Assembly: GCA_945861535.1 (NCBI GenBank)
Contig: CAMAUZ010000054.1
Coordinates: forward strand, 1 to 54,792
From: Akkermansia muciniphila
GTDB taxonomy: Bacteria; Verrucomicrobiota; Verrucomicrobiia; Limisphaerales; BJHT01
Length of the DNA: 54,792 nucleotides
Reading direction: 5' to 3'
The position numbers and the translations under genes were made by a program. Below the pieces are notes generated by a model. That model was not told where the DNA came from. It worked only from the letters and a program-made list of their open reading frames with translations, and searched no databases. Shown piece after piece: positions 576 to 18,600 of the stretch (its first letter is position 1; every line of letters begins with the position of its first letter).

Positions 576-1796
576 CTACTGGTTTTTCTCGTTCCAAATC
601 ACTTTGATGGAATTAATGAAAGGCCCATCCGCCATTCTACTGCCATCCAAGAAACATCCGTTCAAAATGAACCCAGAACCGTTGGCTGGGACCAAAAATC
701 GCACCGCGACCCGTTGCTTGTATTGATTTCTCCAAACCGCTTCTACCCGGTAGTGAGTATATCTCTGTAGATCACTTGACGCCAGCCGGACAGCAGACCA
801 CTGCGCGGTGTTTGATGACACAACATCGAAGATTCTGCCAATAGTCACTTCCGCTCCCCAGCCATTCAAATAACCGTTCCTGACCTCTTTCCAGCCCATG
901 GATTGAATCGCTTGGTCGATCAGCTCCTCCTGTCGCGCAATAAATTCCGCACGTCTTCTTGCGTGCTCTTCGGCCACCGCTTTGGCACGCTCGGCCGCCT
1001 CCGCTGCTGCAACACGATCCCGATGATACGCGATCACCTTTGGCTCCCTCGCCAGCGCCTCCATATCAAAACTGATCCACGGAATTCTCGCGCTTAGTTT
1101 CCCGGTATCAGATCGGATGATGATTCCTTTCTCGTCTGCATTAAGTATGGTCCCAACTTGCTCGGTCAGGTCTTTCAATCGGAACGTCCGGCTCTCGTTC
1201 GCCGGCAAAGGTGGAAGCGCGGGGCTCCCGCCATTCACCTCAGTCTTTGAGGCCGTGGCGTCTGCGTTCGGTGCATTGGTTCCGGCAGATGATTGTGTTA
1301 CCTGATTACTCCCGGATGGTGCTGCATTGGTGGTGGAGACACGAGGACTCGCGCTGGCAGCCGGGGCGTGTTTGACGGGAACCTGGGTTTCACGAGCATT
1401 GTTTGAAAAGTGTATCGCTGCGAAAAGACCACCAGCCACCATCGCCAGGCAGGCAAACGCCATTCCATGGGCCGTGAGAATGCGCTCCCGAAGTGGAACT
1501 CGGGCTGGCCTGGCCGTCAGCAGGCCGTCATCGCTTGAAGGGGCCGGGGGGCGTTCAGCCTGTGACGGGCGACTTAGAATCAATGGGTTCTTAACAACCG
1601 CCTTGGTTTCTCCGACTCCTTGAAAAAACCGCCGGAGGCTAACCCAGTCATCGCCAAGTTTGATTTGCGAAAGCATTCCGAGCTGACCATTTTCCAACCG
1701 ACCTTCAATCTCCTCCACCGACAGCGGCCCTTCCACCCGGCCACGCCATCGGACGAGAAAGGATTCCCCTGCACGGTGCGAATGGCGGTTGTCCAT
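576..1796 (-). CDS. GYF_2-domain membrane protein, last gene of the GTPase/proton-channel cluster
   Basis: 406 aa. Residues about 12-60 form a GYF_2-like domain (FLVRWRGRVEGPLSVEEIE, then LENGQLGMLSQI), a fold often used as a peptide-binding adaptor in PVC-group membrane proteins. A proline-rich linker follows, then one transmembrane helix at about 110-130. Next come an Ala/Ser/Thr-rich stretch (135-200), a region resembling an SHD1-like SH3 fold (about 203-250), a charged alanine-rich helix (about 255-300) and a C-terminal domain I do not recognise. The GYF part should face the cytoplasm and the C-terminus the periplasm (inference). It is the most promoter-distal gene, 45 bp after the coiled-coil subunit. 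The LGMLxQI core recurs in the GYF_2 domain encoded at 5613-6473, so two cluster proteins probably share a type of partner. Function unknown; likely a scaffold. Confidence 0.8.
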   Translation of the reverse strand: MDNRHSHRAGESFLVRWRGRVEGPLSVEEIEGRLENGQLGMLSQIKLGDDWVSLRRFFQGVGETKAVVKNPLILSRPSQAERPPAPSSDDGLLTARPARVPLRERILTAHGMAFACLAMVAGGLFAAIHFSNNARETQVPVKHAPAASASPRVSTTNAAPSGSNQVTQSSAGTNAPNADATASKTEVNGGSPALPPLPANESRTFRLKDLTEQVGTILNADEKGIIIRSDTGKLSARIPWISFDMEALAREPKVIAYHRDRVAAAEAAERAKAVAEEHARRRAEFIARQEELIDQAIQSMGWKEVRNGYLNGWGAEVTIGRIFDVVSSNTAQWSAVRLASSDLQRYTHYRVEAVWRNQYKQRVAVRFLVPANGSGFILNGCFLDGSRMADGPFINSIKVIWNEKNQ

Positions 1797-1841: not shown

Positions 1842-2768
1842 CTATTGGGCAGATGGGCGAGAGCCTTCTGCACTAAAAATCACGACCTCATCCTGTTTAC
1901 GAGGCTCCCACCCATATTCCCGTTTGGCCGCTACGGTGAGTTGTTTGGCAATGTTGAAGGTTGCAAAGGAGTCTTCCCAAACAATGTAGGCCACATATTT
2001 CCCCGCCGGAATGCTCTGGACGATCCGACGAAGGGAAGAGGGACTCTTGCTTGGATCAAGACCCCGCCCCGCCAAGGGGGTGGGCAAAACGCTGTCACGG
2101 TTTTCTTTCCAAGAGATTGTAGCTGCATTCAAATCTCCGGACACAGTCCTCAAAGGATATAGTTGGCCATGCTTTACCAGAATCCAAAAAGCCTCATTAA
2201 CGGTCTCGCGTTCCTGCGGTAAGCGCAAAGCTTGGACTTGCGTGGCGACGATCTCCGCAAATTGCCGCTTGATGTCGATTTCTCGCTGGAGCATTTGCCT
2301 TTGGGCCCCTTCCACAGTTGCAAGGCTGTTTTCCAACTGGCTGCGCTGGAATTCGATCGACTTCTTTTCCGCCTCTAGCTGGCGCAATCGCTCGGCTGGA
2401 TCGGAACTTGGGGCGTTGGTTGCTTGCGCTTGACCGGCAATCGCCTGTTCGCGGAGGAGATCAAGCTGTCGTTGCAGGTGCTTGCGCTCGGAGACCATGT
2501 GCAAGCGTTCCTTTGCCGGGTTAGCGGCAATCTGGGCTTCTAGTTCGTCTTGCTGGCGTCGCAAATCGTCTTGCTCTGCTTCGACCTGGGCTATCCGCCT
2601 TTGGAGCATTGCACGGGAATCAACATTCGCATCCACCTCCGCCCCCTTTTCTTGTTTGGCCAAAAGTGTCACGAGCACAGCCAGTAATACGATGCCCCCA
2701 AAAAGGTTGCACATGGTATCCAGTAATAACTCGAGGCTGTCGGGTGGTTTGGTGTGGCGTAGGCTCAT
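1842..2768 (-). CDS. MotB/ExbD-like coiled-coil stator subunit (no protease)
   Basis: 308 aa. The N-terminus has one transmembrane helix (about 17-37, LLLDTMCNLFGGIVLLAVLV) with an aspartate, D17, at its cytoplasmic end. That is where ExbD, TolR and MotB carry the proton-carrying Asp. A long coiled coil follows (about 40-190, rich in E, Q, R and L), then a compact C-terminal domain (about 195-300) with a YVAYIVWED strand. The layout parallels residues 1-285 of the protein encoded just upstream, which then carries an extra protease. No OmpA-type peptidoglycan-binding domain is present, unlike true MotB. It is 9 bp from the upstream gene, so it should be cotranscribed with the channel gene at 4565-5500. 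The role as a PMF-sensing partner of that channel is inference from the Asp position and gene order. Confidence 0.75.
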   Translation of the reverse strand: MSLRHTKPPDSLELLLDTMCNLFGGIVLLAVLVTLLAKQEKGAEVDANVDSRAMLQRRIAQVEAEQDDLRRQQDELEAQIAANPAKERLHMVSERKHLQRQLDLLREQAIAGQAQATNAPSSDPAERLRQLEAEKKSIEFQRSQLENSLATVEGAQRQMLQREIDIKRQFAEIVATQVQALRLPQERETVNEAFWILVKHGQLYPLRTVSGDLNAATISWKENRDSVLPTPLAGRGLDPSKSPSSLRRIVQSIPAGKYVAYIVWEDSFATFNIAKQLTVAAKREYGWEPRKQDEVVIFSAEGSRPSAQ

Positions 2769-2777
2769 AACTCTTCC

Positions 2778-4568
2778 TTAAAATCCAAGGGCTTTGAGCA
2801 GGCGTCGCCACCACGACAGATTTTCTTTGGGCGGAGACGCCGGCCCGGCAGGAGTGTTAGGCGGAGACGGCGTTTCATTTACCGAAGGCTTTCCCGTCGG
2901 AGGCCCACCTCCCGGGGCATTGCCTCCGGGGCTTCCAACGTCAGGCGCTGGGGTTGGTGTAACGATGACCAAAACCGTCGCCCGCTCCAAATCGCCGACC
3001 ACATCCTCGAACTTGCGGTCTCTGGTTGTAGCCCCTTTTAGTTTGGCGACCGCATCGGGAACAGCTTCGAGGAGGGGCAGCAGGAGTCTTCCCTTCACGG
3101 CGTAATTCACATTCTGGGCGAGGCTGCCGGAGGTGGCTATGGCGGCTTTCTGATTTAGCGTGGCAACCACCACACCTATGACGTTGCCGCGCTCATCCAC
3201 CAGGGCTCCCCCAGAGTTGCCCGGTTGAATCGGCGCGCTGATCTGAAAATGCCGAGCATCATCCCGGACACCTGCCAACCCGCCAATCTCACCTTTGGCG
3301 AGCTTCGGAGAAAAGCCCTGCAAGTCGGGGTTCGGAAACCCAACCGTGGCCACAGTGGCCCCGAGCTTCACGTTGCGGCTCTCTCCGAGAGCCAGGGCTG
3401 GAAATTTCCCTTCGACCTTGAGCAAGGCCAGATCGTTCAGCTTATCCGCCTTCAACACCCTGGCGACCATCGTTCCGGCGGCGGTGCGGATGCGCACGTT
3501 TGCGCCCATTCCAGCAACGTGCTCGTTCGTGATAAGATAGCCGTCCTCGGTGATGAAAAATCCGGTGCCGGAGACTACAGAACTTGGATGTCTCGGCGAC
3601 GAGCCATCTGGAGCAGCTTTTGGCCGGGTCTCTGCGGGAAATCCCGAGTTACCCCCGCTAGTCTCAGGTGGGGTGGGAACCGGTGGCCCGCCACTCTCAT
3701 CAGGAGGCCGTCCAAAAGTGATCTTTTGGCCTTCTTCCACAGCGTCGTAGCCCGTCTGGAATCCCGCATCGCGGGCCAGTTCTCGCAACCTGCGAAACAA
3801 TTCAATTCCCGAAGGTCGGATGAGGAACACAATAAACTGCTGACTCTTGTTCAACCGTTTTAGATAACCGAGCCACTCTGCCGCTGCCGACGAGGACGGG
3901 TAACTCAACCGCGACTCCGGCTTGTCGAACCATTCGATCGTAATGCCACTGCCACCGACGACGATCAAAATGGGTTCACGTTGGTCAGTGGAAGGCTCAG
4001 GGATGAACCACAACTGTCCTTCTCTGGATCGAACGCGAAGCAGTTGAGATTGAGCGAGAGCAACCCGGCGTTCCATCTCCGCCAACTTGGCCCGTTCAGC
4101 GGAATCCCTGCGGATCATTTCATCATTCTTTTGGCGCAGGGAATCGATCTCTTCGCGGGTTTGGGTCAAACCAAGCCTTAAGTCCTGCTCCCGGATTTTG
4201 GCATTAGCTGCCGCTATCGCCTGCCTCGCATCCGCCATCTGCTGGCTCGCGGTTTCGATCTGTTGTTTCAAACCGGCTATGTCCAACTCCAACTTTGCTG
4301 CGGAGGGCGCGCTGTTTGCCGAGGCCTGCGACTCCCGAAGACGCCGCAAATCTTCCACGACCCGATTACGTTCGAGGAGCAAGGCATTGAGGCGCTCCTC
4401 CAGAGCGATTTCCTCCGGGCTGCCACGCCCGCTGGAAGTCGAAGCCTTTTCCAAGTCCGTCGCCAAAATCAGCACCACCAAAATCAGAATCCCGCTTACG
4501 GACGTGATGATGTCCTGAAAGGCGAAAAAACTAAGCTTGGGAGCACCCTCGCGGCGCAAACGGCTCAT
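2778..4568 (-). CDS. MotB/ExbD-like subunit fused to an HtrA-like trypsin protease
   Basis: 596 aa with four parts. (1) A transmembrane helix, about 19-37, starts with D19 in FQDIITSVSGILIL, like the proton-binding Asp of ExbD/MotB. (2) A coiled coil spans about 50-180. (3) An alpha/beta domain (about 185-286; FIVFLIRPSGIELFRR) matches the C-terminal domain layout of the neighbouring 308-aa protein. (4) After a Pro/Gly-rich linker, a chymotrypsin-fold S1C (HtrA/DegP-like) protease spans about 330-500. Its triad is complete: His350 (TNEHVAG), Asp379 (LNDLALL) and Ser452 (QPGNSGGAL). No PDZ domain follows; the tail is Pro/Gly-rich and ends in a short basic/hydrophobic segment. The protease should lie outside the cytoplasmic membrane. 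Its start overlaps the stop of the channel gene by 4 bp (ATGA), which implies translational coupling. Fusion of a stator-type subunit to a protease is unusual. Confidence 0.85.
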   Translation of the reverse strand: MSRLRREGAPKLSFFAFQDIITSVSGILILVVLILATDLEKASTSSGRGSPEEIALEERLNALLLERNRVVEDLRRLRESQASANSAPSAAKLELDIAGLKQQIETASQQMADARQAIAAANAKIREQDLRLGLTQTREEIDSLRQKNDEMIRRDSAERAKLAEMERRVALAQSQLLRVRSREGQLWFIPEPSTDQREPILIVVGGSGITIEWFDKPESRLSYPSSSAAAEWLGYLKRLNKSQQFIVFLIRPSGIELFRRLRELARDAGFQTGYDAVEEGQKITFGRPPDESGGPPVPTPPETSGGNSGFPAETRPKAAPDGSSPRHPSSVVSGTGFFITEDGYLITNEHVAGMGANVRIRTAAGTMVARVLKADKLNDLALLKVEGKFPALALGESRNVKLGATVATVGFPNPDLQGFSPKLAKGEIGGLAGVRDDARHFQISAPIQPGNSGGALVDERGNVIGVVVATLNQKAAIATSGSLAQNVNYAVKGRLLLPLLEAVPDAVAKLKGATTRDRKFEDVVGDLERATVLVIVTPTPAPDVGSPGGNAPGGGPPTGKPSVNETPSPPNTPAGPASPPKENLSWWRRLLKALGF

Positions 4569-5500
4569 GGCGACGTAGTGGGTTTACGGTCCAAAAGCCG
4601 CAGGCGGCTTACGACGTGGGAGTGGCAGTAATCGTTGCACGCATCAAGCAATGACATCTCCCTCCGCTGTTGAAAGGTGATCCAAAGCTGCAACACCAGC
4701 GCATAGATAAGCGCGATGAGGGTTGTCTCGAAGGCGGTGGACAGTCCGGAGGTGACACCCTGAAGACTTGATCGTATCTGAGAAAGGTCCCCCGCTGCTT
4801 GCAACGTCTTGGTAAACCCACCGATCGCCATACTGAGTCCTTGAACCGTTCCAATGAATCCCAACACGGGAATCGCCCAGACCATGCCATTCAAGAGGGT
4901 GTAACTGGAAGCGACCTGATTCTCATCGTTTTCCCCCTGTGATCGCAAGATGGTAGCCACATCCCCAATTTGCCCAATATTGCGGAGGTTTGCCAAGGCG
5001 TTCTCAATTCGGCTGAGGAGAATGAAATGCCGCGGATGATCGACCAATCCATTGATACGCTTCAGGACATCAGCAGCGGTCGCCTCATTCAACACGAACT
5101 CTGGGTCGTCAGGCATCGGCTGCAAATCCAACGCCCGACCTTGCAATTTGATTTTGGAATTCTTCAACAGTATAACGGCGGCACCCCAGCAGAAGAACAG
5201 GGTAGCCGGGATCATCGTGAACTGGTTGCCAGGCCGCAGAAACATCTCCGCGACAAATTGAACGGGGCCGAGAGGGCGCACGACAAATGCCATGAAAGCA
5301 TAGAGCATTCCTGCCAATAGAGTTCCCACGATAAACGCCAACAAATGGTTGACTCCGGTGTGATGCCCAGCTTTAAACCCGATGCGATTCTCGATGTCGG
5401 AGTGAGTCCAAGCGAGGATGTTAAGGTCACTTGTATCGGAATCCGAACTGCTTTGGATTTTGCTCGGCCTTTGCATATAGTTAATCTTTTGCCCAATCAT
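4565..5500 (-). CDS. MotA/TolQ/ExbB-family proton channel
   Basis: 311 aa. Transmembrane helices are at about 52-74, 94-112, 203-228 and 254-276. Helix 3 carries the family signature IPVLGFIGTVQGL (Pro210 region to Gly221), and helix 4 has the small/Thr-rich LSTAFETTLIALIYAL pattern that lines the proton path in TolQ and ExbB. The cytoplasmic loop between helices 2 and 3 is about 90 residues and helical. Family members form pentamers around two ExbD/MotB-type helices and convert the proton-motive force into movement. Two such partners are encoded immediately downstream, the first overlapping by 4 bp. Length fits the family. No tonB, tolB, pal or flagellar gene is nearby, so standard TonB, Tol-Pal or flagellar roles are unlikely. 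An alternative start eight codons in (5476) is possible. A strong hairpin lies just before the annotated start. Confidence 0.88.
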   Translation of the reverse strand: MIGQKINYMQRPSKIQSSSDSDTSDLNILAWTHSDIENRIGFKAGHHTGVNHLLAFIVGTLLAGMLYAFMAFVVRPLGPVQFVAEMFLRPGNQFTMIPATLFFCWGAAVILLKNSKIKLQGRALDLQPMPDDPEFVLNEATAADVLKRINGLVDHPRHFILLSRIENALANLRNIGQIGDVATILRSQGENDENQVASSYTLLNGMVWAIPVLGFIGTVQGLSMAIGGFTKTLQAAGDLSQIRSSLQGVTSGLSTAFETTLIALIYALVLQLWITFQQRREMSLLDACNDYCHSHVVSRLRLLDRKPTTSP

Positions 5501-6531: not shown

Positions 6532-9507
6532 TCATGGCTTTCCTGAAGTGAAGAGTGGTGGGAGGAAACCGCTGACGAGGGGATCCTTCGGATCTACCTC
6601 TGCATTCCTCAGAAGGTTTTCTCTTTTCACCTTTAAGCCGTATAACGGTGTGAATGGAACGGGCGTCTTCGTGGTTAAAACCCACGAAGTCGCCGTCTTT
6701 CGGAACAATATGGCTGGTTTCCCTTCGGCATCCCACCCCCACAGTTCATCGAGGGTTTCGCGGTTTACGTGCGCAGTGCCAGCGAGGCTGATGTGGCCAA
6801 CAAAGTCGAAGCCATTCACGACTGCAGCATTATACAGCTTCGCCAGAGATTCCGCTTGGCGGAAATACGAGGCGCTCTCGTGCGCAGATAACGCCGCTTC
6901 CAACTTTGGGCCAAGTTTCCGATTAACGCTATCAAGATACCAATCACCTTCCTTGACCAACCCTGCGCCCGCAGCGACCAGGTCTTGCCGCTGCCGTTGA
7001 ACCAACGGTGCGAATGGCAATCCCCAGCCCTCTGGCTGGATTTCCATGATTTCAAACACTTTCAGATAAAGCCATGCCCGGAAGAGCGATGATGCCGAGC
7101 GATCCCAGTGGAGGATGTCCAACACCTTTACCAAGGGCAGCCGCGGTGAGGAGCCAATTTCGCCAATTCCTTTGTGCAGCTCGGTTTGGTAGAAAAGCTG
7201 GGGTTCTGGCGCTTTGCCCAGCGGTTTCCATTGGAAAAACTGATTGTCGGGCAGCTTCCATAACATGCTAAAAAAGCCAAAGTCGATCTTTTGAAACCCT
7301 GGAAATGACGTCATCTCCGCCTCCAGGAAGATGCCCGTGTAGGTATTCCATCCGGGGCCGGGATCGCTGGGAATGACATTTGGCGAAAGCCAGAAGCGGC
7401 GTTCCTTTGACGAAAGCGTAAACTCATATTTGTGAACCGCCGTCGCCACAGCTTCGACATTCTTCAGGATCAAAGACAACCTGTGTTCCGCCGGCATTAT
7501 GCTGCTCGGCATGAGCGGTGGCATTTGGCCGTCTTTGAGCTGGTTCCAAAGGTTAGTATTCTGACCGCATAGAAGCACTTGCGTCAGCACGGCAGCGGGA
7601 AGGATTCTACCCTTCATCGCCCGCGCCGCCCGAACTCTTGAATCGCGGATGAACTCAGAGTCCGCCAAACCGTCGAGGGCTGTTTGATAATCCGCCAATC
7701 TGTCGGTGCTTTGCAGACCGCTGGCATTGGCAACGAGGCTTTCCACTTGCTTTTGATAGTGCTGGTGCCGCTGGACCAGATTCTGAAACCGCGTCACGGA
7801 GTCCGGTCGTGGTTTTAGCAGATCACCGGAGTCATTTGTCCAGGCGACAATTCTTCCAGCCGGCTCATTGGCGGCGGTAGCACTTTTGCTAACCTCCTCA
7901 ACCGACTTGTCAAAATTGAGTTCAGCGAGCGCATCCTCGTAGGATTTGACCAGTCCCTCGTATTGCGCCTGCCGACGGCTTTTCTCTTCGTCGAGGAAGT
8001 AGCCCCAACGCTTCACCATCGCCGCCAAATCGGCAGCGGTTTCCTTGGCCAAAACCGGAGCCAGAGCGCGGTTGCTTTCCTGGATTGCGGTCAGCTTCTT
8101 TTGCCATTCCCCGATCTGGGCAGGTGGACTGTTCGTTTCGAGTTTGGCCGGGAACTCTGCGAAGGCGGACTGAAATGCCTGCAACTTGGTGAGCTCATCG
8201 GTCAGGAATTTCTCTGCTTTTGCAAGCGTGTCGCGAATATCGGGCCGAACGAGTTGTTGGGGATTCTCCTTCCGGGTGTTCTCGATGAGTTGCTCCACCC
8301 GGCGAACTTCCCGCTCTTTGATGAGCGCTTGGAGGTGCTGGCCCAAGTCCTTGGCGTTCATCAGTCCCAAGAACCAGATCGCCGCTCCAGCCGTGATGGA
8401 AAGAATGAGAATAGTTGCGGTGCCAATCAGCGCAATCTTGCGGAGACGCCGACGTTGAAGGTGCAGTTTTAGAATGCCGACCCGTTTCTTGAAGCGAGTG
8501 GTCAATTCCTCTGGCAACGAACGGCTGAAATCAATCAGAGCGCGCCAGGTTCGATTAAGCGCTTCGTAATCCTCCCGCAGTTCCTGGGTGCTAATGCCAC
8601 GGGCGGCAGTGTCTTTCTCCTCATTGGCCACAAGCTGAATGAGCAATTCCCGCTGCCGGGCGCGGAACTCGGTGTCGAGCAGATGCTGGCGGTGCTGATC
8701 CTGCGCCCATTTCTCCAAGTCCGACAGGCGTTGAATCAGATCGCTGCTGTCCGGCAGCTTATGGTTCGTTTGGAGTTCACGGATGCGCTCCAACCAGTCA
8801 AAAACATCCCCAAACAATCCTTTACTGCGGGCGACCTCGGCAGCCTGCACCCACATATCCCGCCGCAAACTGTGGGCGCGCGTCCAGACCGGACCGCTGG
8901 GGGCGGTCTGGAAGCCGGCGGTCTCGATGGTCCGGAGGCGTTCCAGCCCGGCCCCGGTGTCCCCCGCGTTGAGGTTGCTGTCGAGTGCTGCCATTTGGGC
9001 GGCCAAGACCTTGACATCGAGTCGGCTCAACTCCGCGGCGGCGTTGGTGTCGGCGGGGTTAAGGCGCACGATTGCACGCAGGGTTTGATAGGCTCGAGGC
9101 TCATCGCGTGAACTCATGGCCTCGCGGTAGCGGCTGTATAACGGATGATCCGCGTTGATGCCCCGTTCATAAAGGGCGTTCAGCGCCTCGGCTGCTTTCG
9201 CATCAAAAGGTTCAGAACAGGGTAACGACTTCTCCTTGCACAGCGTCCGCCAGTCCTCGCTCTTCCGAAAGTCCAGGATCGCGAGCAGATCAGGAAGCGT
9301 GGGGGCTTGCTCGGAAAGCTGTAGTGCCTGTGCGAAGTCTCCCGCCACGATCATTGATTCCACCTGGCTCAAGCGCAGTGCTACCGCCCGGCAGAGCACC
9401 TGGTAGCCTTCAGCCGTTTTGTTCGCTAGGCTCAAATCCGCGCCGGGATCCTGGAATTCCTTGATCTTCCGGACAAGTCGCTTTGCCTCTAGTAGGGTCG
9501 TGATCAT
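6532..9507 (-). CDS. Large single-pass membrane protein of the GTPase cluster, function unknown
   Basis: 991 aa from the ATG at 9507, chosen because it overlaps the upstream stop as ATGA; an in-frame ATG 11 codons earlier (9540) would overlap more. The N-terminal half (about 1-345) is helical with TPR-like stretches (AGDFAQALQL, DEPRAYQTLRAIVRLNP) and no signal peptide, so it is probably cytoplasmic. One transmembrane helix lies at about 358-380, after a basic RRRLRKIA stretch. The second half begins with a coiled coil (about 385-560) and ends in a C-terminal domain of about 330 residues rich in Trp and Phe that I do not recognise. The architecture mirrors the GAP1-like neighbour: cytosolic N-terminus, middle helix, long external part. 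I recall similar N-termini near GTPase-associated genes in PVC bacteria, but cannot verify this here. It may transmit a signal across the membrane. Confidence 0.75.
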   Translation of the reverse strand: MITTLLEAKRLVRKIKEFQDPGADLSLANKTAEGYQVLCRAVALRLSQVESMIVAGDFAQALQLSEQAPTLPDLLAILDFRKSEDWRTLCKEKSLPCSEPFDAKAAEALNALYERGINADHPLYSRYREAMSSRDEPRAYQTLRAIVRLNPADTNAAAELSRLDVKVLAAQMAALDSNLNAGDTGAGLERLRTIETAGFQTAPSGPVWTRAHSLRRDMWVQAAEVARSKGLFGDVFDWLERIRELQTNHKLPDSSDLIQRLSDLEKWAQDQHRQHLLDTEFRARQRELLIQLVANEEKDTAARGISTQELREDYEALNRTWRALIDFSRSLPEELTTRFKKRVGILKLHLQRRRLRKIALIGTATILILSITAGAAIWFLGLMNAKDLGQHLQALIKEREVRRVEQLIENTRKENPQQLVRPDIRDTLAKAEKFLTDELTKLQAFQSAFAEFPAKLETNSPPAQIGEWQKKLTAIQESNRALAPVLAKETAADLAAMVKRWGYFLDEEKSRRQAQYEGLVKSYEDALAELNFDKSVEEVSKSATAANEPAGRIVAWTNDSGDLLKPRPDSVTRFQNLVQRHQHYQKQVESLVANASGLQSTDRLADYQTALDGLADSEFIRDSRVRAARAMKGRILPAAVLTQVLLCGQNTNLWNQLKDGQMPPLMPSSIMPAEHRLSLILKNVEAVATAVHKYEFTLSSKERRFWLSPNVIPSDPGPGWNTYTGIFLEAEMTSFPGFQKIDFGFFSMLWKLPDNQFFQWKPLGKAPEPQLFYQTELHKGIGEIGSSPRLPLVKVLDILHWDRSASSLFRAWLYLKVFEIMEIQPEGWGLPFAPLVQRQRQDLVAAGAGLVKEGDWYLDSVNRKLGPKLEAALSAHESASYFRQAESLAKLYNAAVVNGFDFVGHISLAGTAHVNRETLDELWGWDAEGKPAILFRKTATSWVLTTKTPVPFTPLYGLKVKRENLLRNAEVDPKDPLVSGFLPPLFTSGKP

Positions 9508-12500
9508 GGTCGGCAATCCAAGCGAGTAATTTTTATCCAAGTGTCCATCAACTTAAATTCTAAATCTATATCGAGTTTTGTAGGATCAATTGCACCTCCT
9601 GCTTTCCTTAGCTCACCAATTCTTTTTGACAGAGCCTGCCGATGGTATTGGAAAGTTGTGCCGTCTCCCTTCTTTTGGCTCCCAAATTCAATCCAAAAGC
9701 TCTTGAGATCAAAGATGTTGTCAATTAATTCCTTAAGCTGAGTTCTATAGCGCCGACTTTGAGTCTCCATTTCCATATCAAGGCGCTTCCAAACCTCGGT
9801 ATCGGGCTCTAAATCGAGCTTGAATTGCCTTGATTCGTCAAATCGTTCGTAAATCGCGACCACGCATAGCCTATTTAACAGGTTCCAAAACTTCGTTTTG
9901 TTGGAGCCTGGTCCCGGCAAATCTACAGCTTCCTGGAATTCCAATTTAGGCAAATGCGCCGAATAGTCCGTCTGCACGGTTTTCCAGAAAACATCCACAC
10001 GGTCGAGAGCTGTTTCCATCTTGACAAGTTTTTCAGCCTCGGCGGCTTTTTTTGATAACTGAGCCATTATCCCGAGTTTCCATGGCTTTTTCGTGTTGTT
10101 GACACCATGAATATCCTCTAGCGCATAGATCATGGAGTTGGTGGCAGTTGGATAGGTTCCCACCAGACGCAAGGCATTGTTGCTCTGGAGAACAAGGCCA
10201 GCCAAAAGTTTGCTTAAATCAGGACTCGGATTGAGGTTGTCGTCCGCAATATTTGCTTGAAACGCTTTGTTAGTATTGTCGGCAAAAAGTAACAGTCGCA
10301 GTCGCTCATTGGCTGGGTATGCCCCGTTGTCCGTAGCAAGATTAAACCGGACGGCACCTGATTGCATTGGCGCTTTGTAGATAGCGTTAGTTTTCGATAT
10401 TGTTAAAGACCAGTTCTTATGGATAAATACCCAGTGATTCGTTACGGGCGGCTCCCCAGATGTTACAGGCTCTCCGATCACTTTATTTCGGCTGTGGAAT
10501 TCTTTGCCAAGCTCAGTCCAAATCAAAGTAGGCGGTGGGGTATTGTTTGTAGCCGGCAATTGCGGCCATGATTTCGGATACTGGATCTGGTTGGCACGAG
10601 CAATTCTATTTGTCAGCTGATAAACTGCATTCGTTGCGTCTTTGAATTTATCTTTTACTGTTGAGTTAGTTGGATAGGTTGCTAATTGTTGAGTCGCGTA
10701 AGCAAGAATGTTCGATCTCCGGTTGGTCTCTTTATCCCATTCTGTAATCGCGGCGATTACGTAGATTGGTTCCGAATCCTCAGTCGATGTCGCTTTTAAG
10801 AGTTGAGCAGCACTTTTCGCAGAGGCGTTCGTGGAGAGTTTTTCTGGATCAAATACCGGACCGTGTTTTGGCGGCTCCGCAGAGGTTTGGCCTGGCGCTA
10901 TCTGATTGTCGATTCGTCCAATATTTTTGGTTTGATTGTTGTTTTCTTCTCCCGCCCCAGTCCGGTCTTTTCCTTTTGTTGTGGATTGGGAACCTGGCTT
11001 CGAGGAATTCGGATGCTTTTGTTGGTTTTGATAATGTTCCTTGAGTTCGTTTTTTATCCGAACTAGAACCGCATCGCGGTCCTTCTTGGTCGTGTTGTAA
11101 TCTTTGATCGCAGCGGTTACCTTGGCGCTGACAATCGCATTGTTTTGGAAAGCCAGAGGATTCCGTTTTACTTGTAGTTGCCACCAGTCGCCAAAGTGCC
11201 GAAATCCAAGAGCCGGATCAAAGAACTCCAAGCGAAACAAGACGAATACACAGATTAGCAGCACTAGGACCCCAACAACCAAGACCTTCCCATTATGGTT
11301 GGAAATTGAATTGCTTTGTGGGGTGAGACTTGAAGCGTTGCTTGAGTCACTCGTTCTGTTTCTGTCGCTGTCGCTCAAAGAATTGCGCTGCAGGAACCGA
11401 AGGGATTTCTTTTGCTCTTTGCTGCTTTCCTTAACAGGAGAAGCGGGTGCTGCGGAAGGTGGTGGTGTCCTGGGTACACCCCGCCGCTTCTCCTCCACTT
11501 CAACTATTATCAACGGGGATTCGGCGCATTTATTGGTGATTGAATCCCAAGCTCTCACTTTGTAACGCCATTTGCCACGTCCGACGTTTGGCAGCTCTAA
11601 TTTTCCGGTATAGGCACCGACCACTTCCTCCTCGGTGGTGTTGTCTTTACCCACAGCGTACCAGCGGTAAATGATCTCGCCGGGCAGGGACTGTGCTTCG
11701 CAGTCCAATACCAGGGGTTCGCCTTCGGTGATCCGCACCGCCGTCCCAGCCCGTGGCAGACGGGTGAACTGCGGATCGGCCGGGTCTTTTTTGCAGAACT
11801 CCACCTGCCGCGAATTGGCCGCTGGTCTCAGTTTTCCCAACTCCTCGGGCGCCCGGCCTTGGGTGACCGCCGACTCAAACGGAAGATAACTGGTGAGAAA
11901 TCGCCAGCGGAAATCCGCCGGGTTGTCCTGCGGCTGGCAACCGACGGAGAACGTGCGCTGCCACGCCAGAGAACGCCAATTCGGTCCCTCCAGTTGGAGC
12001 AGATCGAGGGCTTCGGCGAGGAGGTCGAGGATGGTTTCCGGACGGAATTGGTGGGCCACGAACACGCCGGAGTTGAAACCCAGCAATCCGGACGCACGAG
12101 CATGATCTCCCGTTTCCCGAAACCAATTCAGCGCCGGCAGAAAGGGGCGGTCCTTTAGCTCCTCGCGTTCCGGCCAAGGTTCGTTTTCCAGCAGCCGGGG
12201 TTCCTCGCGCCACGCATCCTGCCAGTGGGGCCAACGGCGGAAGATGACCGCTGGCACCGGCATTTCCGCCACCTCTTCGGGGGTGAATACGAGGTGATGG
12301 GCAATAAAATTGGTGCGGCCCGTGTAATCGGCCGGGGCGTCCTTGATGCGACTGAGGACGTGAAAGGTTTTGCCGCGGATGTCGAGGTTGCGGAAGGCGA
12401 ACACGGTGCGCTCCGTGGCGCCCCCATGTTCGGAGAGCCGTTCGTAATAGCTGAGTTGCTCCAACCGGTGAATGAGGCTCTCGCCCATCGTGCTGCTGCG

Positions 12501-12575
12501 GGCCACGGTGCAATAACCGGAGCGCCCCGCGTCCACGCCTTGGGGCGCACTGGTGTAGATGAGTTGCTGAGGCAT
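9504..12575 (-). CDS. GTPase-associated protein with GAP1-N2-like domain, Ig-like domain and membrane anchor
   Basis: 1023 aa. The N-terminus (PQQLIYTSAPQGVDAGRSGY, then CTVARSSTMG) closely fits the GAP1-N2 domain described computationally for GTPase-associated adaptor proteins; it extends to about 260. An Ig/PKD-like beta domain follows (about 272-362; EPLVLDCEAQ, YRWYAVG, GKWRYKVRAWD). Then come a Ser/Pro-rich linker, one transmembrane helix (about 429-448), an Asn/Thr/Lys-rich low-complexity part (470-590) and a C-terminal region I do not recognise. The gene lies 12 bp after the GTPase gene and its stop overlaps the next gene by 4 bp. Base composition falls sharply after about 11450 towards 9504, so the external part has a different history from the N-terminus. 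The role as partner or effector of the GTPase is inferred from the family and order. Confidence 0.8.
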   Translation of the reverse strand: MPQQLIYTSAPQGVDAGRSGYCTVARSSTMGESLIHRLEQLSYYERLSEHGGATERTVFAFRNLDIRGKTFHVLSRIKDAPADYTGRTNFIAHHLVFTPEEVAEMPVPAVIFRRWPHWQDAWREEPRLLENEPWPEREELKDRPFLPALNWFRETGDHARASGLLGFNSGVFVAHQFRPETILDLLAEALDLLQLEGPNWRSLAWQRTFSVGCQPQDNPADFRWRFLTSYLPFESAVTQGRAPEELGKLRPAANSRQVEFCKKDPADPQFTRLPRAGTAVRITEGEPLVLDCEAQSLPGEIIYRWYAVGKDNTTEEEVVGAYTGKLELPNVGRGKWRYKVRAWDSITNKCAESPLIIVEVEEKRRGVPRTPPPSAAPASPVKESSKEQKKSLRFLQRNSLSDSDRNRTSDSSNASSLTPQSNSISNHNGKVLVVGVLVLLICVFVLFRLEFFDPALGFRHFGDWWQLQVKRNPLAFQNNAIVSAKVTAAIKDYNTTKKDRDAVLVRIKNELKEHYQNQQKHPNSSKPGSQSTTKGKDRTGAGEENNNQTKNIGRIDNQIAPGQTSAEPPKHGPVFDPEKLSTNASAKSAAQLLKATSTEDSEPIYVIAAITEWDKETNRRSNILAYATQQLATYPTNSTVKDKFKDATNAVYQLTNRIARANQIQYPKSWPQLPATNNTPPPTLIWTELGKEFHSRNKVIGEPVTSGEPPVTNHWVFIHKNWSLTISKTNAIYKAPMQSGAVRFNLATDNGAYPANERLRLLLFADNTNKAFQANIADDNLNPSPDLSKLLAGLVLQSNNALRLVGTYPTATNSMIYALEDIHGVNNTKKPWKLGIMAQLSKKAAEAEKLVKMETALDRVDVFWKTVQTDYSAHLPKLEFQEAVDLPGPGSNKTKFWNLLNRLCVVAIYERFDESRQFKLDLEPDTEVWKRLDMEMETQSRRYRTQLKELIDNIFDLKSFWIEFGSQKKGDGTTFQYHRQALSKRIGELRKAGGAIDPTKLDIDLEFKLMDTWIKITRLDCRP

Positions 12576-12587
12576 AGAGCGGGAGAA

Positions 12588-13949
12588 TCAGCGGGTGGGG
12601 ACGATTTGCGGGGCAATCTGGCTCAGCAACCAGAGGGGCGGCACTTCGGCCAACATGGGTTTGATTTGTTTCGGGTCAGGCGTGGCACCGCCAATGGTGG
12701 AGTCCTTGCCGGACCAAGGCAAGGGCGTATGGCCAAAGGAACTCATGGGGAAGTAGCACACGGACTCGCTGAGAGCCTCGGCGTTGGCCACAACGCCCGG
12801 ACAGATGTCCCTCAGGAGATTGCGAACCATGGTCGAATTCTTGAAGAGTGTCTCCAAATTAAGGCGGCCATTCTCCACGGGTTGAGCGAGGGTAATGTTC
12901 GGCAGGAGGTGCAACCACGCGTCGCACTTCCCGAGAATCACCGCGAGCGGCGCTTTGATCCGCTGATCGGGCCGGAGGCGTTGGATGGCGGCCACACGGG
13001 TCCGAATCTCGCTGAGAATGACCTCCTGCCGGTCGCCGGGAGTCTTCTTCATTCCGGGATCGGTCGTTTCACCGAGAAACCGCCGGAAATCGGGGATTTC
13101 AAAGGGATCAACCAGATACATGATGCCGTTGGCGCTGGCGACATGCTGCGCACCGGGATTTTCAACGACATTGATGCCCGGCTGGAAATGCTCGCCGGCG
13201 TTGTCGTACAAAATCAGTCCCGTGCCGGGTGTGTCGCCCCTTGGTTTCAACTGGTAGGTGAAGGGTTTGGGCAACAGCACCATGCGGCCCTGACGGGGAA
13301 ACCGGTCATACATTGCGCCCTGCATCTGCGTCTTGATCAGCCGGGTTTGCTCCGGCCCCGAACCGCTGAAGAGGGTGGTCTTCATCGAGTTGAGAGCGGC
13401 ATTCCCGGTGGGGTCAGCGTCCTGCATCGTCACGTCGAACCGTTTGAAAAGCGCAATGGGCAGGATTTTGGCGAGGACCGCCAAATAGTAGGATTTCCCG
13501 GAGGACTGATCGCCCACGAGCGAGATGATGTGCTGCGGCAATTCCAAAAAGTTCGGCGGGAGCTTTCGGCGGCAGTGGGGGCAGGCAAGGTCCGTAGCTG
13601 GCAACCCCATCGCGTCCAAGGCGTTGCCGTCGTCATCGTACCGGGTGGCCAAAAACCGCTGGGGTGCGTCCTCGCCAAGGATCGGGTCGCCACGCAACGA
13701 ATCATGGACGGCGATGTGCATGACCTCACCACGGGAGAGCTTCAACCAGCAGGCGGGACAGGTGATACTCTGCTCCCGTGGCAACGGCGGCGGGAGCGGG
13801 TCCGAGTCGGCGGATGCCTGGCGCTGCGGTTGAACCGCGGGAGCAGTGAACTCCAGTTCGCAGGTTGGGCACTTCACCATCCCACCGGCGTGTTCCTGCG
13901 AAATCAGCAGCGCCTCATTACAGGCTGGGCAGGAAAAGTTTAGTTCCAT
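12588..13949 (-). CDS. Zinc-ribbon P-loop GTPase (double-GTPase-like), first gene of the cluster
   Basis: 453 aa. Three cysteine-pair elements precede the NTPase: Cys7/Cys10 with Cys27/Cys30 (a complete N-terminal zinc ribbon), then Cys64/Cys67 and Cys123/Cys126, which may make a second ribbon. The P-loop is G146-DQSS-GKS153, the G3 motif is LILYDNAGE (D249-G252), and a G4-like element reads ILGKCDAW (Lys341, Asp343) in place of NKxD. These features fit the DO-GTPase (double-GTPase) group linked in comparative genomics to GAP1-type proteins in predicted NTP-dependent conflict systems. The protein has no transmembrane helix, so it should be a cytoplasmic switch. It starts the - strand cluster, 12 bp before the GAP1-like gene, and any promoter must lie in the gap beyond 13949. 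GTP rather than ATP specificity is inferred from the G4-like motif. Confidence 0.85.
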   Translation of the reverse strand: MELNFSCPACNEALLISQEHAGGMVKCPTCELEFTAPAVQPQRQASADSDPLPPPLPREQSITCPACWLKLSRGEVMHIAVHDSLRGDPILGEDAPQRFLATRYDDDGNALDAMGLPATDLACPHCRRKLPPNFLELPQHIISLVGDQSSGKSYYLAVLAKILPIALFKRFDVTMQDADPTGNAALNSMKTTLFSGSGPEQTRLIKTQMQGAMYDRFPRQGRMVLLPKPFTYQLKPRGDTPGTGLILYDNAGEHFQPGINVVENPGAQHVASANGIMYLVDPFEIPDFRRFLGETTDPGMKKTPGDRQEVILSEIRTRVAAIQRLRPDQRIKAPLAVILGKCDAWLHLLPNITLAQPVENGRLNLETLFKNSTMVRNLLRDICPGVVANAEALSESVCYFPMSSFGHTPLPWSGKDSTIGGATPDPKQIKPMLAEVPPLWLLSQIAPQIVPTR

Positions 13950-14926: not shown

Positions 14927-15650
14927 CGCCGTTATTTTACTGCTACTGATGCCGTCGCCTAAACCTCCGAACTGTCCGTCGCTGCCTACCGCAGCGACAC
15001 CGCCAGCGAACCGGTCGTAACCAGCTGGCCTTCCGGGACGGTGGCGAACAACCGCGTTCGCCAACTTGTTCCGGTGCGTTCCAACTGGCAGTTACTCTGC
15101 GAGGATTCGAGTGGGTGGCAAGCGGATTCGCCAATGCGAAAAAAATCCCAGGAATCTCCAGCGCCAAGCCCAGTCTCGGAGATTTCGCAAAGTCGGAACG
15201 GTCTGACTTGGAGGCTCCGGCGGAATGTGCGGAAGGCAACGCGGCGTTCCGCGACTTGGTAAAATTTTGATGGGAACGCAAGGCGGCCGCCCTCTCGATC
15301 CAGCCGCGAACCACGCCGGACTCCGAGGAACGGCTGACCGCCTGGCGACAGTGTCGGCCCGCCCTATCGGCCCTGAAAGTGCTGAACACCCCGAGCGTGG
15401 GCCGGCAGCGGCTCGCAGCGCCCGACACATAGCCGCCAGATCGTTCCAGGCGTTGCCGGTCAGGCCACCCGGCCTCCAGCAACCGGACTTGTGGGGCAAG
15501 CTCAGGACTACCTCGGGACGACCAACTTGCTTGCTCCCCAGCCGCGTGCCGATACGCGCGGCCAGCATTGGAGCAGTGCCGCCCCGCCCTGCCCTGCCCT
15601 GCTCCGCCCGGCGCTTGTGCCGGGGGCAGGCGCGAACTAGCGTGCGCCGC

Positions 15651-18600
15651 ATGAATCTCCGGCCCGTTCCTTTTGCGCGTCATCGCTGGCCGCTCGCGTT
15701 CGCATTCGTTCTCGCGATCGCGGCACCGCACGGTGTGGGGGCGGCCGAAGCCAAGACCATCCGCTTGCGCAATGAAATCATCCGCACGGAGGCGACGCCC
15801 AAGGCGACGAAAGGCCCGCAGGCATTGGTCGCGGACGCGCCGGTGTCGGGGCTGTTCCTCGTGCAATTTCAGGGTCCGCTGCAGGCCGCGTGGCGCGACG
15901 AGTTGCTGCGCGCGGGCGTGACGCTGTTGCGGTTTGTGCCGGAGGACACGTTCGTGGCGCGGCTCGACCGGGCGTCGCTGGCGCGCGTGCGGGCGCAGCC
16001 GTTTGTGCATTGGGTCGGAGTTTATCGGGCAGATTACAAAGTGCATGGCCAGGTCCGGGCAGCGCTCGCGGGCAAGCTGCTGAACAATGTCGCGTCCATC
16101 CGGGTGCTGCTCGCGCCGGGCTTGGGCGCGGCGGACCGACTCGGCGTCCGGCGCGGAATGCAGCGCGTGAGTCGCGAGGCGGCGCACGGGTTCGGCACGG
16201 TGATGGAAGGCGCGGCGACGCCGCGCCAACTGGCGGCGCTGGCGAATTCTCCGGCGGTGCTGTGGATCGAGCCGGCCGCGCAGATTCGGCTCTTCGATGA
16301 GGTGGCGGTGAAAATCATCGCGGGCGGCGAGACCGGGCACGGAAGCGATCCCAATCTCGGCGAGGGTGAAGCGCCGCCGGGTTCGGGCATCCGCACGAAT
16401 CATTTTGCCGACGTGCATCTGCTCGGCTTCGACGGGCGCGGCGTGACGGTGTCGGTCGCCGACAGCGGTTTGAACAACGGGGACGCCGGCTCGATGCACC
16501 CGGATTTGCGCGGGCGCGTGGACGCTTTTTTCTATTACGGCCGACTCACGGATGCCGCCGATGAACACAGCCACGGCACGCATGTCGCGGGCATCGTCGC
16601 GGGCAACGGCGCAACCGGCGAACTGGACGACACCGGCGCGCTCTACGGCCTCGGCGTCGCACCCATGGCGCACATCATCGGGCAGCGCATCTTCGACGGG
16701 GTCGGGGGATATGAAGCGCCGCCGACGTTTGAGACCCTGACGCGCGACGCCGTGCGCGCGGGCGCGGTGATCGGCTCGAACAGTTGGGGCGACGACACGC
16801 ACGGGCGCTACGACATCAGTGCGGCGGAGTTCGATGCGCTGGTGCGGGACGCGGATTTCGGCACGCCGGGGGATCAGCCCTATATCTTGGAATTCAGCGC
16901 GGGCAACGCCGGGCCGGGCCGGCAGACCATCGGCAGTCCTGCCGTGGCGAAGAATGTCATCGCCACGGGCGCGTCGCAAAACAACCGCTTTGACTTTCTC
17001 ATCTACGGCGAGGGCCAGGACGCGATGGCGGATTTCTCCAGCCGCGGACCGGCGGAGGACGGGCGCATCAAGCCGGACCTCGTCGCGCCGGGCACCTGGA
17101 TCGCGTCGTTGCAGTCAGGGTCGGCCACGGACGAGAGCGCGTGGCTGCCGATCTCGGTGAATTACCAATATCAAGGCGGCACCAGCCAGGCGGGGCCGCA
17201 CGCGTCCGGGGCCGCGGCCATTTTCGTGCAGTATTATCGCGAGACGCACACGAACGCGACCCCCTCACCGGCGCTGGTGAAGGCGGCGTTGATCAATTCC
17301 GCCGTTGATCTGGATGACACCTCGGGCACGGACCCGGTGCCAAACATGGATGAAGGCTGGGGCCGCATTGATCTCACGCAACTGATCGGTTCGGCGCGGC
17401 GTTTTTGGTTGGAAGACCAGCAGCAGCCGTTGATCAGCGGCCAGGTCTCCGAGCGCAGCGTCATCGTGGGGAGCCGCACTCAGTCGCTGAAAATCACGCT
17501 GACCTACACCGACGTGCCGGGTTTGCCGGCGGCGATTCCGGCCTTGGTAAATGATCTCGATCTCGAGGTCATCGCGCCGGACGGCTCGGTGTATCACGGC
17601 AACCAATTCGACCACGGCGAATCGGTCGCGGGCGCGCCCGGCTTCGACACGATCAACAATGTCGAGGCCGTGCATCTGCGCGCGCCGCTGCCGGGCGAAT
17701 ACATCGTACGCGTGCGGGCGCGCAACGTGGTCGAGGACGCACGGCGCGACACGGCGGCGGTGGATCAGGATTTCGCGCTGGTCATTTCAGGCGACCTGCC
17801 GCTGCCCGGCGTGGGCGTGGTGATCTTCGATCGCACGGCCTACACAGCGCCCGCGACGGCGTTGGTACGGCTGATTGATTTTGATCTTGCGGGGCGCGCG
17901 ACGGCGCAGATTTCGCTGACAAGCGGCACGGAGACCAACGCCGAAGCCATCACGCTGCGGGCGTACGGGAGCGCGGGTGTTTTCACGGGCGCGGTGGTGC
18001 TCGCGACCGGCGCGGTCGCGGCGGACGGGCGCGTGCAGGTCACCGACGGCGATGCGATTCAAGCGCGGTATCAGGACAGCGCCGGGCAGGTGCGCACGGC
18101 GGAGGCGAACATCGACCGGCAGGCGCCGGTGATCAGCAACGTCACGGTGACCAATCAATTCGGCCGCACCTACATTCGCTGGGACACGGACGAGGCAACG
18201 TTCGGAGCGGTGCGCTACGGCACCAACGCCGCGCTGGAGTTGAGCGCGACGAACCGCGTGTTCGACACGGCGCACGAGTTCGGCCTCGACCAGTTGGCGC
18301 CGGGCGCGACGTATCGGTTCTTCGTCGTCGCGGTGGATGAGGCGGGCAACACGACGACGAACAGCAGCGGCGGCGCGCTCTTCAGCTTCGTCCCGTCGGC
18401 GGCGAAGGCGGTGTTGCTGGTGGATGCGTACACGGCGGATAGCCCGCTCTTCGACAGCCAATCGATTCCCCTGACGGCCTACACCGATCCGCTCGATGCG
18501 ACCGGCGTTTCCTATGAGGTCTGGCCCACCGCCAGCCGGGGCAGTCCGTCGGCGAGCAATCTCCGGCCGTTCCGCGCGGTGATCTGGCGCATCAACGACA

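Follow-up and report, generated by a model that had tools for sequence, protein, structure and literature searches.

A candidate Tol/Exb-type motor subunit fused to a trypsin domain in a GTPase and GAP1-N2 operon of Verrucomicrobiota

Here we describe an operon in which a stator-type membrane subunit, designated B1, is fused to a trypsin domain and is encoded beside a MotA/TolQ/ExbB-type channel. The operon lies on a stretch of 54,792 nucleotides (the window), for which we established the gene order, the domains, the intact catalytic triad and the predicted folds, as well as the presence of trypsin domains in several sister operons. We propose that it encodes a trans-envelope machine, in which a GTPase would control a Tol/Exb-type motor with an axle of B1 and a second subunit, B2, and in which, in this genome, a protease within B1 would cut where it is tethered. 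We assign this reading a probability of about 0.5. The wider operon is of more interest than the single fusion.

Results

An eight-gene operon with a channel, two stator-type subunits and a GTPase-like gene

The operon consists of eight genes on the minus strand, running from position 13949 down to 576 in the order DO-GTPase2-like, GAP1-N2, P6, zinc-ribbon TM2, MotA_ExbB, B1-trypsin, B2 and P4. The genes, and the parts of B1, are as follows.

12588..13949, minus strand: DO-GTPase2-like protein (E 8.3e-6; 26.1 bits, just below the 27-bit cut-off)
9504..12575, minus strand: GAP1-N2 protein with one hydrophobic segment (E 1.3e-25; 90.5 bits, cut-off 24)
6532..9540, minus strand: P6, 1002 aa, with one hydrophobic segment
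5613..6473, minus strand: TM2 membrane protein with a zinc ribbon (TM2 E 1.2e-12); its N-terminus is GYF-like by eye
4565..5500, minus strand: MotA/TolQ/ExbB-type channel, 311 aa, with four hydrophobic segments (MotA_ExbB E 1e-8)
2778..4568, minus strand: B1, 596 aa, ATG start; stator-type subunit with a fused trypsin domain
4458..4514, minus strand: B1 membrane helix, aa 19-37, Asp19 being its first residue (hydrophobicity scan, Asp conservation)
4020..4418, minus strand: B1 predicted coiled coil, helices within aa 51-183 (structure prediction)
3735..4004, minus strand: B1 TolR/ExbD-like domain, aa 189-278 (TolR at rank 1 by Foldseek and VIA)
3171..3569, minus strand: B1 Trypsin_2 domain, aa 334-466 (Pfam; His350, Asp379, Ser452)
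2781..2816, minus strand: B1 Trp-rich C-terminal tail, aa 585-596 (resembles the tails of six trypsin-free B1 relatives)
1842..2768, minus strand: B2, second stator-type subunit, 308 aa, Asp17, homologous to B1
576..1796, minus strand: P4, at the end of the operon, one hydrophobic segment; its N-terminus is GYF-like by eye (no Pfam match)

The MotA gene overlaps the start of B1 by 4 bases, and 9 bases separate B1 from B2. The DO-GTPase2-like gene occupies the expected place upstream of GAP1-N2, and its product gave weak zinc-ribbon matches at the N-terminus. An Ig_3 match of 26 bits (cut-off 30) was the only FNIII/Ig-like sign in the GAP1-N2 protein, and Pfam gave no GYF match in the zinc-ribbon TM2 protein. 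P4 has a relative in a sister locus, L037 (E 2.9e-72). In the channel, T218, within a GTV motif, and T260 were invariant in seven MotA rows; such threonines line the proton path of ExbB.

The G+C content was 0.51 to 0.61 in the seven other operon genes and 0.56 to 0.64 in the parts of B1, with 0.651 for the region from 14 to 54 kb. B1 had no match in the only other genome of the genus, among the part of its candidates that was scored. The low G+C content and this missing match suit a patchily inherited operon.

Elsewhere in the window, three plus-strand loci were noted. At the contig end, positions 1-429 encode the C-terminal piece of an AAA ATPase with a match to the anti-phage protein IetA (E 1e-7). 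A subtilase-family protein of 1868 aa with a TSP3 repeat is encoded at 15225-20831, and a run of genes at 26073-31613 matches PSCyt/PSD, HXXSHH (DUF1552) and PQQ beta-propeller families.

B1 and B2 are best read as Tol/Exb-type subunits

An earlier note on this DNA had described a single protein at 2778-4568, with no strand given. We confirmed one open reading frame of 596 aa on the minus strand, the plus strand of the same interval being interrupted by stops. A Kyte-Doolittle scan picked out a single hydrophobic segment, which covers aa 19-37 and begins with Asp19. Structure prediction gave helices at 51-85 and 90-183 followed by an alpha/beta domain at about 185-285, in line with the coiled coil and alpha/beta domain anticipated in that note, and when aa 1-290 were taken in ten-residue blocks, 22 of 29 reached a pLDDT of at least 85. 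The trypsin part of the full-length model was of low quality because almost no aligned sequence spanned that region.

The N-terminus had also been called ExbD/MotB-like. Sequence profiles do not bear this out: Pfam matched neither ExbD nor MotB at the N-terminus, Pfam, NCBIfam and PADLOC gave no ExbD/MotB or other stator family in B1 or B2 of the window, Pfam gave none among 48 B2 members, and ExbD is absent from the 25 of 36 Pfam families listed for 58 B1 members. Aligned by hhalign with ten ExbD-family proteins of its own genome, the first 45 aa of B1 gave no significant match (Prob 0.3, E 0.13), with Asp19 placed on the ExbD Asp in that run. The OmpA-like peptidoglycan-binding domain that is a hallmark of MotB had no Pfam match in B1. 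A sequence search of the PDB with the MotA profile returned 0 matches at E 1, and the matches listed for the B1 profile (60 of 80) fell mostly on the coiled coil (best E 0.0014), as did a PorL/GldL chain (E 0.48). What does favor the assignment is the MotA_ExbB neighbor, the conserved membrane Asp and a TolR-like outer fold.

Of the aligned rows, 55 of 58 for B1 and 46 of 48 for B2 carry the membrane Asp. Among 48 operons with both subunits aligned, 43 have Asp in both, three have lost it in B1 (to Ser in L069, L120 and L136), two have lost it in B2 (to Gly in L104 and L113), and none has lost both. The three B1 losses are probably one event, since their N-termini are nearly identical. This pattern is compatible with a mixed axle that retains one or more proton sites, but with so few losses chance would give the same.

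For the outer domain of B1, E. coli TolR (5by4) ranked first in the PDB, both by Foldseek (E 5.4e-4) and by VIA (Z 8.2, rmsd 3.2, 84 of 105). Four ExbD entries scored Z 6.8 to 7.2, including 8p9r (Z 7.2, rmsd 2.0, 68 of 74), and unrelated folds came close behind TolR (3hrg, Z 8.0; 6kvn, 7.5), a VIA Z below 8 being a value that can reflect a common arrangement. The predicted model of B2 (mean pLDDT 87.1) also placed TolR 5by4 at VIA rank 1 (Z 6.7, rmsd 3.0, 85 of 105) and ExbD at rank 3 (Z 5.8); plain Foldseek with B2 gave nothing below 0.001 and put TolR only at rank 42 (E 1.3). An hhalign comparison found B1 homologous to B2 (Prob 98.6, E 9.3e-16, across most of their length), and restricted to the first 45 aa it gave Prob 49 and E 2.6e-5; the coiled coil may contribute part of the strong full-length score. 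As genomic context and fold agree, a Tol/Exb-type B subunit is the best reading for both proteins.

The operon recurs chiefly in Verrucomicrobiota

We found sequence matches to B1 in at least 8 of 196 genomes of the order and profile matches in at least 16 of 320 genomes of the order, 15 of 384 of the class (two of which, G214 and G238, hold a different MotA-B-B operon) and 36 of 387 of the phylum, where the sets overlap and include the window genome and the counts are lower bounds from 6-12 scored candidates per genome. A MotA-specific segment of 91 aa, drawn from 17 operons, detected 288 relatives in public genome contigs. The best 80 of these were retained. Judged by record title, most of them are Verrucomicrobiota, and Planctomycetota, Lentisphaerae, Desulfamplus and Nitrospiraceae also occur. 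They include a cultured relative, Brevifollis gellanilyticus (L124), in whose covered stretch no trypsin was matched.

In total, the operon was found whole or in part in 88 contigs, chiefly of Verrucomicrobiota: the window, 18 from the genome searches and 69 of the best 80 MotA relatives. MotA was found in 88, B1 in 82, B2 in 77, P6 in 70, GAP1 in 55, GTPase in 53 and all six in 49, MotA having served as the query for 69 of the 88 and many contigs being too short for all genes. The set leaves out 11 contigs judged, from their lengths and coordinates, to be identical to included ones, together with L067 and L068, which carry another type of operon; it may include near-identical species, and one genome may supply two contigs. 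Collected by B1 or MotA queries, it is no random sample of GAP1-N2 operons. The loci from the 320-genome order search and the 387-genome phylum search were judged by frame length and stand outside the 88.

Arrangements vary among these loci. In L102, L104 and L112, MotA-B1-B2 lies on the strand opposite GTPase-GAP1 (with P6 beside the latter in L104 and L112), meaning that motor and switch can be transcribed as separate units. In L066, GTPase, GAP1 and P6 come after B2, not ahead of MotA, and the B1 relative at 7382-8635 combines a stretch of low complexity with a hydrophobic segment at the C-terminus, the latter resembling a second membrane anchor. The operon of L067 and L068 has a longer MotA-like gene and two short B-type genes, with no GAP1 or GTPase match, and may be the tolQ/paired tolR type of the PVC group (PMC12204202).

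The trypsin module sits between two native parts of B1

Pfam matched Trypsin_2 to aa 334-466 of B1 (E 5.8e-27), the outcome of a profile search that the earlier note had suggested, and His350, Asp379 and Ser452 are all present at the positions it gave. Judged from its sequence, this is a trypsin domain. The module common to other trypsin proteins is wider than the Pfam match, at about aa 327-540, and is flanked on both sides by Pro-rich linkers. The name "HtrA-like" holds for the domain and its His-Asp-Ser triad but not for the protein: Pfam found no PDZ domain in B1, and full-length HtrA/Deg models matched the trypsin domain only, with scores below their cut-offs (degP_htrA_DO, 87.4 bits against 416.2). 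Human HTRA1 was the best PDB sequence match of the domain among those listed (E 4.9e-17), and all of the matches listed (60 of 98) were HtrA/Deg-type by name.

Six trypsin-free B1 relatives (L037, L038, L039, L076, L077 and L079) end in a Trp-rich tail that follows the TolR-like domain and a linker, and this tail is like aa 585-596 of the window protein. Because these relatives end in such a tail, the protease module lies between two native B1 parts, the TolR-like domain and the Trp-rich tail. We therefore reject the suggestion that the protease replaced the outer domain; the TolR-like fold and the native tail are both kept, with the protease behind the former in the linker to the latter.

A second B1-trypsin fusion, of 537 aa, was found in another order of the same class (L060). 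Its triad motifs are kept, as judged by eye, and it lacks a Trp-rich tail at its end. The combination of a stator-type subunit and an intact-triad trypsin in one chain, beside a channel gene, is thus not private to the window genome, and a local fusion absent from all relatives can be rejected. The two fusions are possibly independent events: a supported set of six rows (100/99; 98/97 in a second tree) holds the window module with four modules of the same order and one of the same class, without that of L060, and a common origin was not rejected by an AU test (p 0.084). Profile searches of the order and phylum, with lower-bound scoring, gave only two other B1 frames above 400 aa. That of G084 is 541 aa long with a Gly-rich C-terminus, that of G240 is 421 aa long and has a hydrophobic segment at its C-terminus, and neither showed a trypsin match (by Pfam in the case of G084). 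No trypsin was found inside a B1 frame among the best 80 of the 288 loci from the MotA search.

Trypsin domains recur at other places in sister operons

A trypsin match was present in 10 of the 88 contigs and lay clearly within the operon in nine. B1-fused trypsins are rare and were confined to the window and L060. L100, L132 and L135 have a trypsin protein between P6 and MotA, L147 has one after B2, and in L112 a trypsin protein with Sel1 repeats adjoins P6. In L063 and L070, a separate trypsin gene directly follows B2, with a start that resembles a signal peptide by eye, and L114 has partial trypsin matches at both contig ends. A hydrophobicity scan found one hydrophobic segment ahead of the trypsin domain in L100, L112 and L147, and the proteins of L132 and L135 are probably one-TM likewise. 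GYF_2 matched L147 alone of these five, and the other four have a GYF-like start by eye. As a rough background, 58 genomes gave 302 trypsin-type matches by a different detector, so no enrichment factor follows.

Since 78 of the 88 contigs, many of them short, gave no trypsin match, the machine does not require a trypsin, as far as such often-cut contigs tell. Where topology was examined, the hydrophobicity scans and signal-peptide-like starts suggest that the protease lies outside the inner membrane, and this, rather than attachment to the axle, seems to be the common trait. As trypsins are also found on other one-TM proteins or free and apparently secreted, the protease appears to be a periplasmic accessory whose attachment to the axle is optional. 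At the level of sequence, the recurrence speaks for a connection of the protease with the motor and, of the earlier proposal, for the placing of proteolysis.

Discussion

In our model, a cytosolic GTPase and its partner GAP1, together with P6 and the GYF-like proteins, may control a motor in which a B1-B2 heterodimer would form the axle of a MotA/TolQ-like ring and which would be driven by protons. The arms of B1 and B2 would extend into the periplasm by a long coiled coil, with TolR-like domains at their ends. The window genome has a trypsin-type protease in B1 between the TolR-like domain and the Trp-rich tail, and the motor would thereby carry its own protease, a periplasmic accessory of a minority of operons. 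The likeliest job of this protease would be to cut a partner or target where the motor is engaged, its location being set by tethering, with envelope stress or phage as a presumed trigger. Extended beyond this genome, the model tentatively describes a class of envelope machines, distributed over Verrucomicrobiota and other phyla, that would be controlled by a GTPase, driven by protons and built on a mixed axle of B1 and B2. Some of them would be armed with a periplasmic protease, which is here part of the axle.

One alternative holds that the trypsin was captured incidentally, as a binding or anchoring module or with the job that it had when free-standing, so that its attachment would say little about the motor. 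The module has the background for this. It is at most 72% identical to modules in other trypsin proteins of the same order, in several of which Sel1-like repeats precede it by eye, and the genomes with its nearest relatives (G008, G025, G031 and G041) are outside the at least 16 of 320 that have B1. Moreover, Kaur et al. call nearly all effector-position trypsins of vWA systems inactive (PMC7159879). However, the catalytic residues are intact in the window protein, and trypsins recur in sister operons in several architectures, including the Sel1-trypsin protein of L112, which belongs to the same subfamily as the window module and lies within the operon. We consider incidental capture unlikely.

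The earlier note had further suggested that movement switches proteolysis, meaning that proton-driven rotation or extension of B1 would expose, pull or activate the protease and cleavage would occur only with a running motor. Fusion to the Asp-bearing subunit in two genomes, both with triad motifs in place (those of L060 by eye), speaks for this reading. The main evidence to the contrary is that in sister operons the trypsin is part of another membrane protein or has a gene of its own, unattached to B1, which weakens this reading; in addition, most contigs show no trypsin, and the Pro-rich linkers on both sides of the domain would transmit little force. A mechanical switch therefore appears decidedly improbable to us. 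An assembly artefact joining two genes of separate origin is to be dismissed as extremely improbable: the exact fusion is found in one assembly only and 2.8 kb from the contig end, but its frame is open without a stop, parts of B1 stand before and after the insert, and L060 holds a second fusion.

The tethered-protease model can be compared with several known systems. Zorya ZorAB is a MotA-like channel in a presumed conflict system. Scanning nine window proteins gave weak ZorA matches (best 7.7e-6) and none to ZorB, ZorC or ZorD, and membership in Zorya is rejected in the absence of ZorB plus ZorC/D or ZorE. The AglRQS gliding motor of Myxococcus, as far as covered by the available part of PMC9389320, resembles the window in having one MotA homologue with two MotB homologues; unlike the window, it has no GTPase/GAP1 operon there, and the word "protease" is absent. 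Paired tolR-like genes have been described for the PVC group in PMC12204202, where the tolQ and paired tolR clusters differ from the window in being described with TPR and vWA genes; its main text lacks the words "protease", "trypsin" and "GTPase". The word "protease" is likewise missing from the available text of two 2025 papers on this motor superfamily, that paper included, and in the literature searched, as far as its text was accessible, there is no earlier report of a motor of the Tol/Exb/Mot superfamily carrying its own protease.

The window resembles TolQ-TolR and ExbB-ExbD in that a MotA_ExbB-type channel gene stands beside a one-TM subunit with an Asp, and the outer domains of its B subunits are most like TolR, with ExbD close. 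It differs from them in having two different B subunits, an added protease and a predicted coiled coil of about 130 aa between the membrane and the TolR-like domain. None of the eight operon proteins matched TolA or TonB in Pfam.

GAP1-N2 systems are named in the literature searched only by Kaur et al. 2020 (PMC7159879), who, in the part available, proposed them as conflict systems and described paired-GYF proteins fused to trypsin in those of planctomycetes. MotA, TolQ, TolR and ExbD are absent from the text of that paper, supplements apart. As far as the same text goes, the window is like these systems in its GAP1-N2 match above the cut-off and, at a score just below the cut-off, in a putative GTPase gene upstream, and unlike them in that its protease sits on a motor subunit. 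The components are thus already known, and the joined operon and the axle fusion are what was not found in the literature searched. Linked to a Tol/Exb-type motor, GAP1-N2 systems would have a candidate source of energy and a candidate location. The natural fusion offers a handle, with a serine to mutate and a protein for pull-down, toward the target of the system.
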